A stretch of DNA of 64,000 nucleotides from NCBI RefSeq assembly GCF_015218165.1, contig NZ_CP048659.1:3100001-3164000 (forward strand), in the 5' to 3' direction. The notes beneath the pieces are model-generated. The model was not told where the DNA came from. It saw only the letters and a program-made list of their open reading frames with translations, and did not search any database. This DNA comes from Acinetobacter piscicola. Lineage in GTDB: Bacteria; Pseudomonadota; Gammaproteobacteria; Pseudomonadales; Moraxellaceae. Shown here piece by piece: positions 22,175-30,815 of the stretch (position 1 is its first letter; each line of letters starts with the position of its first letter). The translations under genes and the position numbers were made by a program.

Positions 22175-23152
22175 ATGAATAAAGCTCGTATCAATATCGC
22201 AATTTCAGGTCTTGGCTTAATTACAACTGAAAAACTAAAAGCAAAATTACGTGAAGTCATTCCATCATCTATTGACATCCATTGGGGTAAAATGAATGAC
22301 CCTGAGATTCACCTTGTCTTTATTCATGAATTTTTTTTTGAAACTGAAAACATCCAGAAAATTATTTTTTCCAATAATTTAGCATATTTAAAAATATCTA
22401 AAGATAATCTGACCCAAGGCTCAATTCAAGACAATACTTTATTTTTACCTGTACAAGATTCGCAGATTTTAAAGAATTGGATTCAAACTCATGTTTTAGA
22501 TCGACACAATATTGTTGTGGAAGCGCCTTTAGAAACAAACGAAACTCTAGTACCTTTACGGCATGATTTTCCTCTTTTAAATGTGCAATATATTGCTGAA
22601 ATTTATCATGATTTACAAAGAAAAGTACATCTTTTCGATCAGCTTGGTAGCTTAGCAGTGATTGATCATCATATGCATGTTGCTTGGATTAACCCAAAGC
22701 GGATGCTTCCACATACCGATGGCTCATTGCAATATGCATCCGCAACGATTGAGGATTTTTCGGCTGTTTCACGTAAACAACAACTGAATTTAGAAAATTG
22801 GCTCTTTGAATTACTGTGGAATTCGACAGACTTATGTATACTTCCTCACGCATCCGCACATTTCAAGCTTAAATTTTGGCCTCAGCCTACACGTACAGAT
22901 CGTAAATTAATTTTGCAGCTTTCTGCCTGTTTTATTCAAGGTGCGGAAGTACAACACGTGGCAAATAAATTGGGAATCGATATCCAAATTGTCCAACGTT
23001 TCATCAATGCCAATCTGGCAATACATAATGCTGAGCTGGTCAATGCTAAGGCATGCCAATTTGATCAAACAACAAAGAATGAAACTCAGCAACAAGACGT
23101 GAATGGTTTACGTAGCTTTTTCGGTAAATTAAAACGTCGATTCGGCTTTTAG
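22175..23152 (+). CDS. Uncharacterised protein, first gene of a GTPase/Roadblock module
   Basis: This 325-residue protein is not recognised. The N-terminal 110 residues have an alternating beta/alpha pattern (RINIAISGLGLITTEKLKA, then VFIHEFFF) that resembles a receiver-like fold but lacks a clear phospho-acceptor. The middle (about 150-220) contains LGSLAVIDHHMHVAWINP, reminiscent of a sensory beta-sheet. The C-terminal third (about 235-290) is helical, with AEVQHVANKLGIDIQIVQRF, which looks like a winged-helix element. The tail is basic (GKLKRRFGF). It is 11 bases upstream of the GTPase gene and cotranscribed with it. A regulator or scaffold for the GTPase is my guess. Confidence 0.7.
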   Translation: MNKARINIAISGLGLITTEKLKAKLREVIPSSIDIHWGKMNDPEIHLVFIHEFFFETENIQKIIFSNNLAYLKISKDNLTQGSIQDNTLFLPVQDSQILKNWIQTHVLDRHNIVVEAPLETNETLVPLRHDFPLLNVQYIAEIYHDLQRKVHLFDQLGSLAVIDHHMHVAWINPKRMLPHTDGSLQYASATIEDFSAVSRKQQLNLENWLFELLWNSTDLCILPHASAHFKLKFWPQPTRTDRKLILQLSACFIQGAEVQHVANKLGIDIQIVQRFINANLAIHNAELVNAKACQFDQTTKNETQQQDVNGLRSFFGKLKRRFGF

Positions 23153-23163
23153 GAACATCACCG

Positions 23164-23697
23164 ATGATTATTCAAAAATATAAAATTGTTTTTGCAGGTT
23201 CAATGGGGGCAGGAAAAACCGAAGCGATCAAAGCATTATCTGAAATTCCTGTTTTAGCGACCGAAGCATATAATACTGACCAAGAACGCCATCAGAAACT
23301 TAATACTACCGTAGGTATTGATTATGGTGAGATTACCCTTGAAGATGGGAACAAAATTGGGTTATATGGCACACCTGGGCAAGGTCGCTTTGACTTTATG
23401 TGGGGCGTCATCTGTCAAGGTGCGATAGGCACCATTATTTTGATTGACCATAGCAACCCTAACAGCCTTGAAGAACTTCAATATTATGTCGATATTTTCA
23501 AAAAATATGATGATAACATTGTGATTGGTATTAGTCATTTAGATAAAAATACAGACATTTCTAGCCACAAATACCGCACTTGGCTCATCGAAAACAATTT
23601 GAATTATCCATTATTTTTTGTCGATGCTCGCCAAAAAGATGATGTGCTCATGTTACTTGAAACCGTTATTACCACGTTAGAAATTAAATATTTATAG
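23164..23697 (+). CDS. Small Ras/MglA-like GTPase
   Basis: This 177-residue GTPase belongs to the group found next to Roadblock proteins (MglA or conservon CvnD-like). The P-loop is GSMGAGKT at residues 12-19. Switch I probably includes TTVGIDYGE (48-56). The G3 region is GTPGQGRF (69-76), with Thr-Pro-Gly-Gln in place of the DxxG motif, as is typical of this branch. The G4 motif is SHLD (125-128) instead of NKxD, and G5 appears as VDARQ. Substitution at G4 may alter nucleotide specificity. It lies between the unknown protein and a Roadblock gene. Confidence 0.88.
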   Translation: MIIQKYKIVFAGSMGAGKTEAIKALSEIPVLATEAYNTDQERHQKLNTTVGIDYGEITLEDGNKIGLYGTPGQGRFDFMWGVICQGAIGTIILIDHSNPNSLEELQYYVDIFKKYDDNIVIGISHLDKNTDISSHKYRTWLIENNLNYPLFFVDARQKDDVLMLLETVITTLEIKYL

Positions 23698-23707
23698 AGA
23701 GAATAGA

Positions 23708-24121
23708 ATGCTGAATATCGCTGAACAACGTAGTGCGCCAGATGAATTAATCGATTTTACCAAAGCCGAAATTCATGATGTTTTAATGAATGTAAAAGGA
23801 ATTGATTTCATTATGGCATGTTCAACCGATGGTTTTGAATTATGCTCGGTGTATCGCAAAAACACCTATAACTCAAGCAAACTTGCAGCTGTCAGTAGTT
23901 CTATTTTAGCCATGGTAAGCGCTTTTTTAGGTGAAATCGAATTGGTCGGTTGTAATAGTATTACGCTTGATGCAGAAAATGGTAAAGCAGTTTTAACTGC
24001 TGTCCCTGCTGCAAAACATCCCATGGTTTTAGTCACTTTAGCCGCAAAAGATATTTTATTAGGACAATTACTTTATAATCTAAAAACAGCGAGCAATAAT
24101 ATTGCAGCACATAGTTCATAA
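23708..24121 (+). CDS. Roadblock/LC7 domain protein (MglB-like)
   Basis: This 137-residue protein fits the Roadblock/LC7 fold: a long helix near residues 13-28, strands around IDFIMACSTDGFELCSVY, a helix SSKLAAVSSSILAMVSAFL, then strands SITLDAENGKAVLTAVPA and PMVLVTLAAK. Such proteins dimerise and act as GTPase-activating or docking partners for small GTPases. It is 10 bases downstream of the GTPase gene, and a terminator follows, so the three genes form one unit. Confidence 0.85.
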   Translation: MLNIAEQRSAPDELIDFTKAEIHDVLMNVKGIDFIMACSTDGFELCSVYRKNTYNSSKLAAVSSSILAMVSAFLGEIELVGCNSITLDAENGKAVLTAVPAAKHPMVLVTLAAKDILLGQLLYNLKTASNNIAAHSS

Positions 24122-24130
24122 ATCATTTTT

Positions 24131-24162
24131 AAAAGCCATTTCAAGTGAAATGGCTTTTATTT
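24131..24162 (+). terminator. Terminator of the GTPase module, between convergent units
   Basis: A perfect 12-bp inverted repeat (24131-24142 with 24147-24158, 4-nt loop) is followed by ATTTT. It also has an A/T-rich side that could serve the convergent atuF gene. Confidence 0.9.
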
Positions 24163-24179: not shown

Positions 24180-26129
24180 TTATTGTGTAGCAAATGCAAT
24201 ATTTAGTAAAACTTGGCGCTTTTTCACCTGTTGACCAATTTGTGCAATGATTTCCTCAACAACACCATCACCATCTGATTTAATCTGTTGCTGAATTTTC
24301 ATCGCTTCTAATACAATTAAAGTCTGACCTTTTGTTACCGTATCACCAACATTCACCAAAATATTAATCATTGAACCATCCATCGGCGCACGGATCTTGC
24401 CATCCCCTGCCACATCAGAGGTTTCAGGTACAGCATAAGTAACATTTTCAATACTAATATTGCCATTGACTGCATCTAAATACAGACGATGACCATCCAA
24501 AACATAGTCAATTGAACGGCGTACACCATTTGCAGTGTAAATCAATTTTTGTGCAGTTTGCTCAAGAACTTGGATTGTAAAAATCTGACCGCAAATTTCA
24601 ACTTCAACCTGATTTTGATCACGTTTCACCAAAAGCTGTAATTGTTGATCATCATGTTTGAGCTTTAATGGCAACGACAAAGCGATCCCTGTATTCCAAC
24701 TACGATTGCTTGAGGCATTGGTGAATAATGCTGCGCTCACCGCCAAATGCTCTAAGCCCAAAGTTTGCTTATGTAAGCTTACATCATCTTGAAAATATTC
24801 TTGGATAAAAGCGGTATTGGTATCGCCTTGGACAATAATGGGATGCTTTAATAAATTCACCAAAAATTGCTTATTGCTATTTACCCCCAACAACACACAA
24901 TCATTGACTGCTCGTGCCAAAAGACGAATCGCATCCTGACGAGTTTTTCCATAAGCAATGACTTTTGCCACCATCGGATCATAGAATGGGCTGATTTCAT
25001 CTTGGCTCAATAAACCATGATCAATTCGGACATTCGGTAAATGCGCAGGCAACCAACGCTGTACTTGCCCTGTTTGTGGTAAAAAGTCCTGACGTGGATC
25101 TTCGGCATATAAACGCACTTCTATCGCATGACCTGTCAACGTCAACTCAGATTGTTGTAAGGGTAATGTCTCACCATTAGCAACACGCAATTGCCACTCG
25201 ACTAGATCAAGCCCTGTAATCAGTTCTGTTACAGGATGCTCAACCTGTAAGCGAGTATTCATTTCTAAAAAATAAAATTCACCTGATTGGTCAAGTAAAA
25301 ACTCAACTGTTCCTGCACCGACATAATCACATGAACGCGCTGCGGCAACGGCTGCCTCGCCCATTTGCTGACGTAAAGTTTCAGTCATGACAGGACACGG
25401 TGCTTCTTCAACAACTTTTTGATGACGACGTTGAATCGAACAATCACGCTCAAAGAGATAGACATAATTACCATGCGTATCACCAAAGACTTGAATTTCC
25501 ACATGACGTGGTGCGATCACCGCTTTTTCAAGAATGAGCTCACCTGAACCAAAGGCATTTTCTGCTTCAGAACGTGCTGTTTTCAATGCTTCGACGATGT
25601 CCGCTGAGCTTTGTACCAAACGCATGCCTCGCCCGCCACCGCCTGCCGAGGCTTTGACCATCAATGGATAACCAATTTGATTAGCTTGTTGTTCTAAATG
25701 CTCAATCTTTTGCTGATCGCCCTCATAACCGGGGACGCATGGCACACCTGCTTGAATCATCGCGATTTTTGAAAGACGCTTACTGCCCATCAATTCAATT
25801 GCAGGCGCGGGTGGTCCAATAAAGGTGATGCCATTTTCAGCACATGCGGCTGCAAATTCTGTATTTTCAGACAAAAATCCATAACCAGGATGGACTGCAT
25901 CAGCACCTGTTTTTTTACAGGCATCGATAATATTTTGAATCGACAGATAAGATTCTGAAACTTTTGAAGCTCCGATATATACAGCTTCATCGGCAACTTG
26001 CACATGACGTGCATGACGGTCTGCATCGGAATACACCGCTACAGTTTCATAACCCATTGCCCGTGCTGTTTTCATTACGCGAACAGCAATTTCACCACGA
26101 TTCGCCACCAATACTTTTGAAAATGCCAT
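24180..26129 (-). CDS. atuF: Geranyl-CoA carboxylase alpha subunit (biotin carboxylase/BCCP)
   Basis: This 649-residue biotin-dependent carboxylase subunit has a biotin carboxylase N-terminal domain (VLVANRGEIAVRVMKTA), the ATP-grasp segment KASAGGGGRGM, RDCSIQRRHQKVVEEAPCP, and the EMNTRLQVEHPVTE motif. The C-terminal BCCP domain has its biotinylated Lys in EAMKI (Lys near 609). The family includes methylcrotonyl-CoA (LiuD), propionyl-CoA and geranyl-CoA carboxylases. The AtuF assignment rests on gene order (atuABCDEF) with the beta subunit AtuC here. A methylcrotonyl-CoA specificity cannot be excluded by eye. Confidence 0.8.
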   Translation of the reverse strand: MAFSKVLVANRGEIAVRVMKTARAMGYETVAVYSDADRHARHVQVADEAVYIGASKVSESYLSIQNIIDACKKTGADAVHPGYGFLSENTEFAAACAENGITFIGPPAPAIELMGSKRLSKIAMIQAGVPCVPGYEGDQQKIEHLEQQANQIGYPLMVKASAGGGGRGMRLVQSSADIVEALKTARSEAENAFGSGELILEKAVIAPRHVEIQVFGDTHGNYVYLFERDCSIQRRHQKVVEEAPCPVMTETLRQQMGEAAVAAARSCDYVGAGTVEFLLDQSGEFYFLEMNTRLQVEHPVTELITGLDLVEWQLRVANGETLPLQQSELTLTGHAIEVRLYAEDPRQDFLPQTGQVQRWLPAHLPNVRIDHGLLSQDEISPFYDPMVAKVIAYGKTRQDAIRLLARAVNDCVLLGVNSNKQFLVNLLKHPIIVQGDTNTAFIQEYFQDDVSLHKQTLGLEHLAVSAALFTNASSNRSWNTGIALSLPLKLKHDDQQLQLLVKRDQNQVEVEICGQIFTIQVLEQTAQKLIYTANGVRRSIDYVLDGHRLYLDAVNGNISIENVTYAVPETSDVAGDGKIRAPMDGSMINILVNVGDTVTKGQTLIVLEAMKIQQQIKSDGDGVVEEIIAQIGQQVKKRQVLLNIAFATQ

Positions 26130-26183
26130 TCTCGTTTTCCCTATTCTTGGTTTTATATTTTGTTCTATAAGTTTGGATGTGAA

Positions 26184-27026
26184 TTACCCACCATCAAACC
26201 AACTTGGATTGCGTTTTTGAATAAATGCCATGGTACCTTCCATGCCTTCTTCACTACCTACCGCATTGGCAAATTGTTGCGCGGCATCATCCAACAAACT
26301 GTTGAGTGGCTCATTCAATGTACGATGCAATAACGCTTTGGTAACACGAGAAGCATGCGGTGCTGTGCGTTTGATTTGCTGAATGGTTTCAGCCAATAAA
26401 ATTTCTAAATCGGCAAGATGATCTGCCACTTCATGCACCACCCCCACTTTAAGCGCTGTCTGTCCTTCAAAGCGATTGCCCAATAATGCCAAACGACGTG
26501 CTTGCGTTAAACCGATGCGTTTCACCACAAAAGGCGCAATCTGTGCAGGAATGACGCCCAAACCTGTTTCGGGCAAACCAAACTTTGCATCAGTAAGACT
26601 AATGGCGATATCAGACACACATGCCAAACCAAAACCACCACCCAAAACCGCACCTTCAAGCACAGCCACCACTGTTTGTGGTGCTTGATCAACCTGTTCA
26701 ATCATATAGCCAAATTGACGGTTAAAATCTGCATAAGGTTGGTTTGAACCTGCACTGGCAGCTTCGCCACGCAGTTGCGCCATGTCTTTGATGTCACCCC
26801 CTGCGCAAAAATGTCCACCTTTACCACGTAGAATCACCGCACGGATCGACAGATCATTTTCAATGGCTTTAAACACTTGTTGAATAGTTTTGACCATATT
26901 TAAACTCATGGCATTACGACTTTCTGGTCGGTTGAGCCACACGCTTAAAATACTTCCCTCTTGTTCCAATTCAATACTGTCATCAAATTGTTGTGAAGTG
27001 AGAGCGGCTGAAAGTGTCATACGCAT
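26184..27026 (-). CDS. atuE: Isohexenylglutaconyl-CoA hydratase
   Basis: This 280-residue crotonase-family protein has the oxyanion segments RGKGGHFCAGGDIKDM and LEGAVLGGGFGLACV, and the KFGLPETGLGVIPAQIAPFV segment, the PETxLG region often carrying an active-site Glu. It would hydrate isohexenylglutaconyl-CoA in acyclic terpene breakdown. The LiuC-like methylglutaconyl-CoA hydratase is the close alternative. The start lies 5 bases after the atuD stop, so the two are cotranscribed. The call depends on the cluster. Confidence 0.8.
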   Translation of the reverse strand: MRMTLSAALTSQQFDDSIELEQEGSILSVWLNRPESRNAMSLNMVKTIQQVFKAIENDLSIRAVILRGKGGHFCAGGDIKDMAQLRGEAASAGSNQPYADFNRQFGYMIEQVDQAPQTVVAVLEGAVLGGGFGLACVSDIAISLTDAKFGLPETGLGVIPAQIAPFVVKRIGLTQARRLALLGNRFEGQTALKVGVVHEVADHLADLEILLAETIQQIKRTAPHASRVTKALLHRTLNEPLNSLLDDAAQQFANAVGSEEGMEGTMAFIQKRNPSWFDGG

Positions 27027-27031
27027 TCTCC

Positions 27032-28189
27032 TTATTTACGCTTTGACGGCAAAATATCCATCAATTTACAAATAATGCCGAGCATGATTTCATCTGCACC
27101 ACCACCAATTGAACCTAAACGACCATCACGATACAGTTGCGACGCAGGGTTATCCCACATAAAACCATTACCCCCCCAAAACTGTAAGCAACTATCAGCC
27201 ACTTCACGGGTTAAACGCCCTGCTTTGAGTTTTGCCATAGATGCAATCTCAGTGGCATTGCCACCTTCCAAATGAATCTGACAGGCACGATAGGTCAAGG
27301 CACGTAAAGCTTCGACTTCCGTCATCATTTCTGCAAAACGGAAATGTACATATTGGTTATTAATCAATGGCTGACCAAAAGTAGCTCGCTCTTTGGTATA
27401 TTCAATGGTTTGTTTAATCACATGCTCCAAACCACCAATGGCATTCGCTGCTGCCCACATACGTTCCTCTTGGAATTGCATCATCTGCATCATAAAGCCC
27501 ATGCCTTCAGCACCCACCAAGTTACGTTGTGGAACACGGACATTGTCAAAATAGACTTGAGCAGTTGTGGTTGAACGCATTCCCAATTTATTTAATGGCT
27601 CTGAAAAACTGATCCCAGCACTTTTTGCAGGGACAATAATCATCGATTTATTGACATGCGGTTTATCGTCAGATGTATTCGCAAGTAAACAGAAGAAATC
27701 TGCTTGCAGTGAATTGGTGATCCACATCTTGCTTCCGTTGATGATGTAATCATCACCGTCTTTTTTTGCTGTGGTTTTGATGGCTGCAACGTCTGAACCT
27801 GCATGCACTTCTGAAACTGCAATCGAAGCGACATATTCACCCGCAATGGCAGGCGTTAAAAATTCATCTCGTAATTCTTTACTGCCAAAACGTGCTAAAG
27901 CAGGTGTTGCCATATCAGTTTGCACACCAATCGCAAGCGGTACACCACCACATGCTGCTCGTCCCAACTCTTCTGCAACCACGAGGTTATAAGAATAATC
28001 CAAACCTAAACCACCATTTTCTTCAGGCTTACAAATGCCCAATAAACCCAAATCTGACATTTTTTTAAATACATCGTGAATCGGGAAAATCCCTTCCGCT
28101 TCCCATGTTGGAATGAATGGATTCAGTTCAGTTTCTACAAACTGGCGTGTGGTACGGCGTAGTGCTTCATGTTCTGGAGTAAATTTCAT
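27032..28189 (-). CDS. atuD: Citronellyl-CoA dehydrogenase-like acyl-CoA dehydrogenase
   Basis: This 385-residue FAD-dependent acyl-CoA dehydrogenase has the flavin-region motifs ASIAVSEVHAGSDVAAI and KMWITNSLQADFFCLL, and ends with GSIGGGADEIMLGIICK. The stretch ALARFGSKELR and MQFQEERMWAAANAIGG resembles Pseudomonas AtuD as I remember it. It would oxidise citronellyl-CoA to geranyl-CoA. It sits between atuC and atuE in the expected order. Isovaleryl-CoA dehydrogenase (LiuA) is the main alternative. Confidence 0.8.
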   Translation of the reverse strand: MKFTPEHEALRRTTRQFVETELNPFIPTWEAEGIFPIHDVFKKMSDLGLLGICKPEENGGLGLDYSYNLVVAEELGRAACGGVPLAIGVQTDMATPALARFGSKELRDEFLTPAIAGEYVASIAVSEVHAGSDVAAIKTTAKKDGDDYIINGSKMWITNSLQADFFCLLANTSDDKPHVNKSMIIVPAKSAGISFSEPLNKLGMRSTTTAQVYFDNVRVPQRNLVGAEGMGFMMQMMQFQEERMWAAANAIGGLEHVIKQTIEYTKERATFGQPLINNQYVHFRFAEMMTEVEALRALTYRACQIHLEGGNATEIASMAKLKAGRLTREVADSCLQFWGGNGFMWDNPASQLYRDGRLGSIGGGADEIMLGIICKLMDILPSKRK

Positions 28190-28254
28190 TGTTTTGTCCT
28201 AAATTTATTTTTAATGTTCCATATCATCGTTTTTCAACGATCAATTTTTGATTT

Positions 28255-29868
28255 TTAAAATCTGGATACGCCAAATTTTGATGCATTCAATTGACGGGCT
28301 CTTGACTCATAAATTGTTTTAAATAGAAAAATAAGTACTTTACGTGTGTCTCGTGGGTCAATAATGCCATCATCATGCAGCATGGCCGTATTAAATAAAG
28401 CCGTAGATTGCTGCTCTAATTTGACCGCTGTACTTTGTTCTAGAAAATCTAACATTTGTGCATTGGGTTCCATACCCGCAGCTTTTTGCTTTTCTTCAGC
28501 CACAATACGTAGAACCTTACCTGCCTGTGCAGAACCCATCACGGCGACATGAGAATTTGGCCATGCAAAAATAAAGTCTGGATCTAAAGGGCGACCACAC
28601 ATCGCATAGTTTCCTGCACCATAAGAACCATGCGCGACTATAGATACTTTTGGAACGGTACAATTAGCTACTGCTTGGATCAATTTCGAACCATGTTTAA
28701 TAATACCGTTCTGCTCCGCATCTGTTCCCACCATAAAACCTGTGGTGTTATGCAAAAATAATAACGGTCGCTGTGTCTGCTCACAAAGATGAATAAATTG
28801 TGCCGCCTTTGCCGCACCTTGTGTGGTAATTGGACCATTGTTAGTTATGATCCCGACATTCAAGCCACCGATTTTTGACCATCCACATACCGTATGTGAG
28901 TCGTATTCTTGTTTAAACTCGAGAAAGTCTGAATCATCAACCAGACGGGCAATAATCTCTTTCATCTCTAAAGGTTGCTTTGGATCAGTGGGAATAATGC
29001 CCAGTAGTTCTTCAATGGCATAACGCGGTTCTTTATAACTTTCACTCAGTGAATGCGTTTGTTCCTTCCAATTCAAATGTTCAAGAACTTCACGCGCGAT
29101 TCGTAAACCATCAGCATCATTTTCAGCTAAATATTCTGCAGTACCTGCAACTTGAGCATGCATTTCAGCACCACCCAATTCTTCAGCACTTGCCACTTCA
29201 CCTGTTGCAGCCAATAACAAAGGTGGTCCAGCTAAAAACATCTCGGTCTTTTTACGCACTGAAATGACGTAATCCGATAAACCCGGTTGGTAGGCACCGC
29301 CTGCTGTAGCATTACCATGTACCACAGAAATCTGCGGAATACCCATTGCTGACATACGTGCTTGATTGGCAAAGGTCTTACCACCATCAGTAAATACTTC
29401 TGCCGCATAGGTTAGGTTTGCCCCACCACTTTCAGTTAAAGCCACGACAGGAAGTTTCTGCTTCATGGCAATTTCTTGGATACGTAGCGTTTTACGGACA
29501 CCCATCGGGGAAATTGTGCCCCCTTTAATTGCACTATTGCTTGCTGTGACTAAACAGCGTACACCACTGACAAAACCAATGCCTGCAAGAATTCCCCCAC
29601 CTGCATCAGAACCATCTTTATCATCATGCATGCCATAGCCGACCAAACCGCATAGTTCTACAAAAGGTGAATCTGCATCTAAAATAAGGCGAACACGTTC
29701 ATGCGGTAAAATTTTACCGCGTTTATCAAACTTCGGTTTGGCGGCATAAGATTTTTCAATACTCTTATTTTGCACAGCACGAACTTCGGCAATTTGAGCT
29801 AAAAGTGTTGCCTTATTTTGTTCATATTGTTCACTACCCACAGCAATTTCAGATTGGAGAATCGTCAT
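28255..29868 (-). CDS. atuC: Geranyl-CoA carboxylase beta subunit (carboxyltransferase)
   Basis: This 537-residue acyl-CoA carboxyltransferase contains GSDAGGGILAGIGFVSG and, near residue 186, VVHGNATAGGAYQPGLSDYV. I remember the GNATAGGAYQPG motif from AtuC, where methylcrotonyl-CoA carboxylase beta has GSCTAGGAYVP. The C-terminal domain has FLHNTTGFMVGTDAEQ and CGRPLDPDFIFAWPN. It partners AtuF to carboxylate geranyl-CoA. The start codon overlaps the end of atuB (ATGA at 29865-29868), showing translational coupling. Confidence 0.83.
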   Translation of the reverse strand: MTILQSEIAVGSEQYEQNKATLLAQIAEVRAVQNKSIEKSYAAKPKFDKRGKILPHERVRLILDADSPFVELCGLVGYGMHDDKDGSDAGGGILAGIGFVSGVRCLVTASNSAIKGGTISPMGVRKTLRIQEIAMKQKLPVVALTESGGANLTYAAEVFTDGGKTFANQARMSAMGIPQISVVHGNATAGGAYQPGLSDYVISVRKKTEMFLAGPPLLLAATGEVASAEELGGAEMHAQVAGTAEYLAENDADGLRIAREVLEHLNWKEQTHSLSESYKEPRYAIEELLGIIPTDPKQPLEMKEIIARLVDDSDFLEFKQEYDSHTVCGWSKIGGLNVGIITNNGPITTQGAAKAAQFIHLCEQTQRPLLFLHNTTGFMVGTDAEQNGIIKHGSKLIQAVANCTVPKVSIVAHGSYGAGNYAMCGRPLDPDFIFAWPNSHVAVMGSAQAGKVLRIVAEEKQKAAGMEPNAQMLDFLEQSTAVKLEQQSTALFNTAMLHDDGIIDPRDTRKVLIFLFKTIYESRARQLNASKFGVSRF

Positions 29869-30815
29869 GAATTTTCCCCTGTAGATTTATTGTGTTGTGT
29901 TTGCTTCTGCTCTTGCGCTTGGGTAGAGCGTTGCTCTACTTTTCCAAGCTCATCTTTTAATACATCTGGTATAAAGGCACGATGGAAACCATTGAACGAG
30001 ACACTATTGGTTGCATCAGCCAGTGGATACATTCGTGTACCTTGTGAAGCTGCACCATCCACTCGTAGTGTTACCCCTGAAATAAAACCTGCTGCTTCTG
30101 AAAGTAAATAAACAATTGCCGATGAAATTTCTGACTCCGTACCCATACGTTTTAAAGGCACATTACCAGCAAGACTTGGAATAATAAATTTGGCAAAATC
30201 ACCCGAATAATTGTCCATACCCGATGATACAATCCAACCCGGTGCAACACAGTTGACTCGAACACCTGAACGTCCCCATTCCACCGCAGCCGTTTTTGTT
30301 AAATTATCCACGCCTGAACGTGCCGCACCTGAATGCCCCATCCCCGGCATTCCGCCCCACATGTCTGCTGCCATATTGACAATGCTACCGCCATGTTTTG
30401 CCATCCATTGGTTATAGGCTTCTTTCATTAAGTAAAATGTTGAATGCAGGTTATTACGTACCACTGCATCAAAACCATTTGCTGAGATGCCTTCTAAATT
30501 TGACGGAAATTGACCGCCCGCGTTATTCACCAAGCCATCGAGCTTGCCGAATTTTTCAAGCACTTCGGCAATCATGTTTTTGACTTGCTGTTCTTCACGG
30601 TTATCACAAACGATAAAATGAACCTTGCCACCATCTTCCGTGATTTCAGCACTGACTTTTTCCAATTTTTCAATTTTGCGTCCTGTGATCACCACTTGCG
30701 CGCCCAATGCTGCTAACTCATGTGAGGTACACCGCCCGATGCCTGAGCCACCACCTGTCACAATCACGACTTTGTCCTGAAAAGCATTTGATCTAAATAT
30801 TGAGTGATAATGCAT
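29865..30815 (-). CDS. atuB: Short-chain dehydrogenase/reductase
   Basis: This 316-residue SDR has the coenzyme motif VTGGGSGIGRC, the NNAG motif (DGLVNNAGG), and downstream VNCVAPGWIVSSG. The usual catalytic Tyr-x-x-x-Lys is not obvious: at the expected place the sequence reads GHSGAARSGVDNLTK, where an Ala or Ser replaces Tyr. This atypical centre resembles enoyl-CoA reductase-type SDRs. A Gln/Glu-rich tail follows. The protein corresponds to AtuB by position. Its biochemical step in terpene use is not established. Confidence 0.77.
   Translation of the reverse strand: MHYHSIFRSNAFQDKVVIVTGGGSGIGRCTSHELAALGAQVVITGRKIEKLEKVSAEITEDGGKVHFIVCDNREEQQVKNMIAEVLEKFGKLDGLVNNAGGQFPSNLEGISANGFDAVVRNNLHSTFYLMKEAYNQWMAKHGGSIVNMAADMWGGMPGMGHSGAARSGVDNLTKTAAVEWGRSGVRVNCVAPGWIVSSGMDNYSGDFAKFIIPSLAGNVPLKRMGTESEISSAIVYLLSEAAGFISGVTLRVDGAASQGTRMYPLADATNSVSFNGFHRAFIPDVLKDELGKVEQRSTQAQEQKQTQHNKSTGENS

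Follow-up and report, generated by a model that had tools for sequence, protein, structure and literature searches.

A new member of the Group 3 MglA systems in Acinetobacter piscicola: a three-gene unit of receiver-/winged-helix protein, MglA-type GTPase and Roadblock protein

Group 3 MglA systems were predicted from genomes ten years ago by Wuichet and Søgaard-Andersen, who defined them in beta/gamma-Proteobacteria (PMC4316618). In the parts of that paper available to us, they comprise a receiver-/winged-helix protein of unknown kind, an MglA homologue with an aberrant G4, and one or two MglB proteins; the GTPase is marked by GTPGQ, DAR, a Thr in G2, and the aberrant G4, and an Asp-Gly pair is the mark of MglB in Groups 2–5 (PMC4316618). 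Here we describe a three-gene unit from a 64,000-nucleotide stretch of Acinetobacter piscicola (the window; contig NZ_CP048659.1, positions 3,100,001 to 3,164,000), which spans 3.10–3.16 Mb of a 3.86-Mb contig in a genome totalling 4.28 Mb. The unit encodes a 325-residue protein, here termed X, followed by a GTPase and a Roadblock protein. It shares with Group 3 the X-type protein, the aberrant-G4 MglA, the MglB, GTPGQ, DAR, and the G2 Thr. Its Roadblock protein also has the Asp-Gly pair. The arrangement itself is thus known, and the unit is, as assigned by motifs and gene make-up, a new Group 3 member. The original prediction correctly recognized a GTPase/Roadblock pair with a receiver-/winged-helix protein, and models of X display both folds. 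Its view of X as impossible to place gives way to a match with the Group 3 first protein, and its proposal of an undescribed signalling system fails, given that the available text of PMC4316618 already defines systems of the same make-up.

The 177-residue GTPase contains a P-loop, lies within the small-GTPase size limit (<240 aa), and exceeds the Pfam cut-offs for Ras and ATP_bind_1. In an alignment of the window protein with 21 relatives (22 rows), Thr48 and Thr49 are invariant (22/22), GTPGQ is present in 16/22 and DAR in 13/22, while G4 of the window protein reads SHLD at the NKxD place and has no Lys. Judged from this alignment, the window GTPase fits every Group 3 motif checked (G2 Thr-Thr, GTPGQ, DAR, and a G4 without Lys). 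Its closest relatives among the best 80 of 591 matches are from Acinetobacter (95% and 88% identity), in keeping with the beta/gamma-proteobacterial range of Group 3. The locus encodes one coupled MglB with Asp41-Gly42, where Group 3 has one or two. This Roadblock protein matches PF03259 with E 0.001 and 19.2 bits, under the family cut-off of 23, and a paralogue in the same genome scores above its Pfam cut-off. The features of the unit are as follows.

22175..23152, + strand: gene X, first protein, 325 aa (open reading frame (ORF) call, model, fold comparison)
22187..22507, + strand: X residues 5-111, receiver fold, in which His51 aligns with the phospho-Asp and Leu91-Pro92 with the Lys-Pro pair (model; residues by sequence alignment)
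22577..22864, + strand: X residues 135-230, alpha/beta domain predicted with high confidence (model)
22877..23050, + strand: X residues 235-292, Trp-Pro motif then winged helix (alignment and fold)
23108..23140, + strand: X residues 312-322, C-terminal helix, basic and amphipathic, that probably anchors X to the membrane (model, tail statistics)
23164..23697, + strand: MglA-type (Group 3) small GTPase, 177 aa (ORF call, Pfam, alignment)
23197..23220, + strand: G1/P-loop GSMGAGKT (alignment)
23305..23310, + strand: G2 Thr48-Thr49, Thr replacing the Group 1 arginine finger (alignment)
23368..23382, + strand: G3 GTPGQ (alignment)
23623..23631, + strand: G5 DAR (alignment)
23708..24121, + strand: MglB-type Roadblock protein, 137 aa (ORF call, Pfam, Asp-Gly motif)
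23828..23833, + strand: Asp41-Gly42 pair of the Roadblock protein (motif comparison)
24130..24159, no strand assigned: hairpin terminator in the interval between the unit and a convergent gene at 24180 (folding versus shuffles)

Reading frames of 325, 177, and 137 codons, gaps of 11 bases (X-GTPase) and 10 bases (GTPase-Roadblock) read off the sequence, and a strong hairpin bear out the proposed three-gene unit. The hairpin forms 13 pairs at -16.4 kcal/mol (z -5.1) and is equalled by 0/200 shuffles; it is absent from the list of a simple terminator scan.

Compared with Group 3 as published, the window unit differs in a receiver that has no phosphorylation residues and in a second-type Roadblock gene (R3) that lies elsewhere in the genome; nothing was found that excludes membership. 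A described relative, likewise placed in Group 3 by its mglA, is the Snodgrassella mgl locus; as given in the sections seen of that study, which do not mention an X protein, it resembles the unit in coupling mglA to mglB with a far-off orphan mglB and is unlike it in having two coupled mglB, where there is one here (PMC11112851).

The Group 1 system of Myxococcus, MglA/MglB/RomR, is similar in joining a GTPase and a Roadblock protein with a receiver-domain partner. RomR is not known to have a winged helix. Group 1 GTPases possess TVPGQ and an intrinsic Arg finger according to the accessible text (PMC4316618), whereas the window GTPase has GTPGQ and Thr-Thr; these differences set it apart from the polarity-type MglA of Group 1. 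Streptomyces conservons (Group 2), as covered in the same text, share an operon with GTPase and Roadblock genes, an aberrant G4, and GTPGQ (PMC4316618). The conservon proteins CvnA, a histidine kinase, and CvnC are not among the neighbours of the window unit.

The unit is not a chance assembly, since across 149 Acinetobacter genomes, including its own, the GTPase and X occur in the identical 93 and the Roadblock gene in 91 of these and no others. The two without Roadblock are G215, with a distant X and GTPase, and G303, which is 64% complete. At E 1e-10 the GTPase was found in 20/194 sampled genomes of the order, and X at E 1e-5 in 82/370 genomes of the class. The best 80 of 591 GTPase matches in a wider genome scan include Acinetobacter, Moraxella, Psychrobacter, Cardiobacteriaceae, Beggiatoa, Thiomargarita, and Thiothrix, as well as Polaromonas, Rudaea, Pseudomonas matsuisoli, Methylomonas, and others. 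Together with 24 loci from the order-sample search, these 80 gave 104 GTPase loci. The X family lies on the same stretch in 97 of them, as located with an iterative profile that started from window X and grew within the same loci, so that relatives match it partly by construction. In 84/104, including Acinetobacter, Moraxella, Cardiobacteriaceae, Beggiatoa, Thiomargarita, Polaromonas, and Pseudomonas matsuisoli, X directly precedes the GTPase in the same orientation (gap -130 to 330 bases). A Roadblock gene is on the stretch in 88/104 and R3 in 57/104. Seven loci have no X (L026, L035, L037, L146, L164, L165, L167); the first three, from genome G177, encode paralogous GTPases in frames of 329-343 aa with, by eye, a Roadblock-like C-terminal fusion. 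At seven other loci (L016, L025, L033, L034, L169, L171, L175) the unit stands near a ~220-aa protein and a PAS (Aer-like) sensor protein, and those ~220-aa proteins that were scanned contain a weak Roadblock-like stretch.

No Pfam family exceeds its cut-off on X (best YqeH-like_C, E 0.09). The predicted model displays a pseudo-receiver, a middle alpha/beta domain, a winged helix, and a C-terminal helix. Among 74 aligned X rows, 50 have Asn or His and 15 have Asp where a phospho-Asp is expected, and 15 have Lys at the Lys position; window X, with His51 and Leu91 by sequence alignment, has neither the phospho-Asp nor the Lys of phosphorylated receivers. On this alignment, the receiver in Acinetobacter X is one that has lost its phosphorylation residues, which is new here. 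The middle domain (135-230) fell outside the fold matches and gave no profile match to Roadblock. W235 is kept in 74/74 rows and P236 in 68/74. Also new are two traits of the winged helix. Among the chains compared, its model is nearer the winged helices of GATOR1/SEA than DNA-binding ones, and its recognition helix is almost uncharged, with a median net charge of 0 and a mean of 0.8 Lys/Arg per 17 residues in 50 representatives, an indirect hint, measured on X alone, that speaks for protein contact over DNA binding.

The C-terminus of X is probably a membrane anchor, judging from its composition, which is likewise a new observation. A set of 100 X entries, with 7 fragments removed, was reduced from 93 to 54 representatives at <50% identity and compared with 256 flanking ORFs, naively called at >=150 aa, some of which may therefore not be genes. 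A net charge of at least +3 in the last 20 residues is found in 49/54 X representatives and 37/256 flanking ORFs, the mean hydrophobic moment there is 0.64 versus 0.43, and charge +3 and the median moment coincide in 27/54 versus 6/256. The window tail motif, SFFGKLKRRFGF, is reminiscent of the amphipathic segments by which MinD and FtsY attach to membranes; FtsY profile matches have E values of 0.64 and 1.5. Model confidence over residues 312-322 is modest (pLDDT ~63-66).

In some distant relatives, the receiver of X is replaced by BLUF, a further new observation. A BLUF-like N-terminal domain occurs in 7 X proteins from 6 genomes of the order (L027-L032, L036), all of which retain the Trp-Pro motif and the basic tail. 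The five that were scanned all pass the Pfam BLUF cut-off (E 5e-23 for L028, 4e-22 for L031, 5e-13 for L029, 5e-11 for L032, and 2e-6 for L036). L028 and L031 hold the Tyr, Asn, and Gln that we take to be flavin-contact residues, and on that basis their BLUF domains look light-competent. The other BLUF domains appear degenerate by eye. The fusion is unnamed in titles and listed abstracts of literature mentioning both BLUF and MglA.

We see about an even chance that X is a membrane-tethered input and scaffold protein that steers an MglA-type switch, perhaps with type IV pili as the target, and is not a transcription factor. Gene order, co-occurrence, motifs, the two modelled folds, the domain swap, and the basic tail are observed, while membrane binding, contact of X with its partners, and the direction of signalling are inferred. 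The GTPase would alternate between GTP and GDP forms, and a Roadblock dimer, perhaps with the second-type Roadblock encoded elsewhere, would bind it and control hydrolysis or exchange. X would be held at the inner membrane by its C-terminal amphipathic helix and would receive the signal through its exchangeable N-terminal domain, by binding rather than phosphorylation in the pseudo-receiver and through BLUF in some relatives. Its middle and winged-helix parts may then relay the signal by contact with the GTPase or Roadblock protein. The likely output would be the place or timing of type IV pilus activity.

That output is weakly supported. Of the 370 genomes sampled from the class, 78/82 X-positive and 214/288 X-negative ones match PilM strongly, at an E 1e-20 threshold set by eye (Fisher p 1.1e-5), counts that are weak support because they are uncorrected for kinship or small reduced genomes. 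The PilM family's own cut-off is passed by 281/370, X-positive and X-negative pooled. In Snodgrassella, a point mutant of the orphan mglB forms motile flares on soft agar and is favoured in colonising a non-native host, according to the sections seen (PMC11112851). Among the papers listed by our literature searches, no study of an Acinetobacter copy of the unit was seen.

Several observations, including the eye-set PilM threshold and the missing kinship correction, weigh against the membrane-switch proposal. PilM is loosely matched in 9/14 control genomes and over cut-off in 3, and no pilus-like gene was seen by eye among recurring neighbours in 1.5-3 kb flanks. The tail moment exceeds that of its own shuffles only modestly (mean z 0.79; z >1 in 24/54), and 5/54 tails carry less than +3, including two with a negative net charge (L025, L166). 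GTPases next to BLUF-type X carry GLPGQ or GVPGQ and DPR or DTR (5/5 aligned), off the Group 3 consensus, and the swap may thus belong to a sister type. Gene order also varies across the 104 loci: R3-X-GTPase-R (R, Roadblock) in 26, X-GTPase-R in 25, X-GTPase-R-R3 in 17, X-GTPase with no Roadblock on the stretch in 12, GTPase-R-X-R3 in 5, and other forms in the remaining 19, including 2 that resemble GTPase-R-X-R3. Finally, the unit is missing from 56/149 Acinetobacter genomes.

The same absence would suit an accessory system that is in decay and matters little, as would a broken second X in the organism's own genome. With three intact genes in the window, strict co-occurrence of X and GTPase, and X spread over 82/370 genomes of the class, such decay seems most unlikely. 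X could instead be a DNA-binding response regulator, with the GTPase pair modulating transcription, as proposed in print for Group 3 in the portions seen (PMC4316618); receiver plus winged helix is indeed a response-regulator layout, and the Asp and Lys persist in 15/74 relatives each. We regard this as improbable, and the published idea as less likely for the window copy. It also seems doubtful that X is a downstream effector recruited to the membrane by the GTP-bound GTPase, with input through the Roadblock proteins. The X-GTPase linkage would fit that role, and the available text reports response regulators, RomR and FrzS, as MglA partners in Myxococcus (PMC4316618), but the N-terminal swap for a photoreceptor-type domain points to X as the sensor.

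GATOR1/SEA complexes, with their subunits Npr2/Npr3, are GTPase-activating proteins (GAPs) for Rag GTPases, small GTPases seated on the Roadblock proteins of Ragulator. Npr2/Npr3 provide the winged helix closest in fold to that of X among the chains compared. A bolder and quite unlikely idea would make the unit the bacterial equivalent of the Rag GTPase/Roadblock/GATOR1 nutrient-sensing module, in which an X winged helix homologous to Npr2/Npr3, tied to the membrane by its tail, would form a signal-gated GAP or guanine nucleotide exchange factor platform on a Roadblock-seated GTPase, with BLUF making the switch light-controlled in some relatives. GATOR1/SEA is eukaryotic and characterised by a longin domain and GAP activity, and its likeness to X is one of winged-helix fold.

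The organism's own genome contains further copies of these components. A second X-GTPase pair at C1:1325 kb is 32% (X) and 59% (GTPase) identical to the window copies; its X frame (L007 6165-7131) is broken near residue 266, and its GTPase frame is open. In a relative (G279), an X copy terminates at about the same place, so the break is probably inherited. Both R3 copies are away from the window unit: a Roadblock gene pair, one per type, lies at C1:2411-2412 kb (L003 7314-8342), and an additional R3 is at C1:178 kb. These Roadblock genes stand apart from any GTPase of this type, and one pair adjoins a gene that we take to be AhpF-like. A weak Roadblock-like match to the window Roadblock (C1:3238313-3238528, E 0.003) contains one internal stop.

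As predicted, no kinase adjoins the unit. Its neighbours are sspB (PF04386) and a 219-aa protein that matches no Pfam family upstream and, convergent from 24180, a presumably biotin-carboxylase-like gene. No ORF of at least 80 aa was found in the 501 bases upstream of X; further upstream lie what we take to be rplM, rpsI, and an SspA-like gene. By eye, the convergent genes at 24180-30815 encode an acyl-CoA carboxylase, enoyl-CoA hydratase, acyl-CoA dehydrogenase, and reductase, and look like a cluster for degrading leucine or terpenoids.

MglA systems of Group 3 occur widely, yet the literature found says almost nothing on their role. With the basic tail, lost phosphorylation site, uncharged recognition helix, and BLUF swap, the published guess of transcription control becomes one of two options that can be tested against each other, a DNA regulator or a membrane switch. 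The BLUF form may allow a bacterial Ras-like switch to be controlled by light and, if true, the GATOR1 fold likeness would bear on the origin of eukaryotic GTPase regulators.
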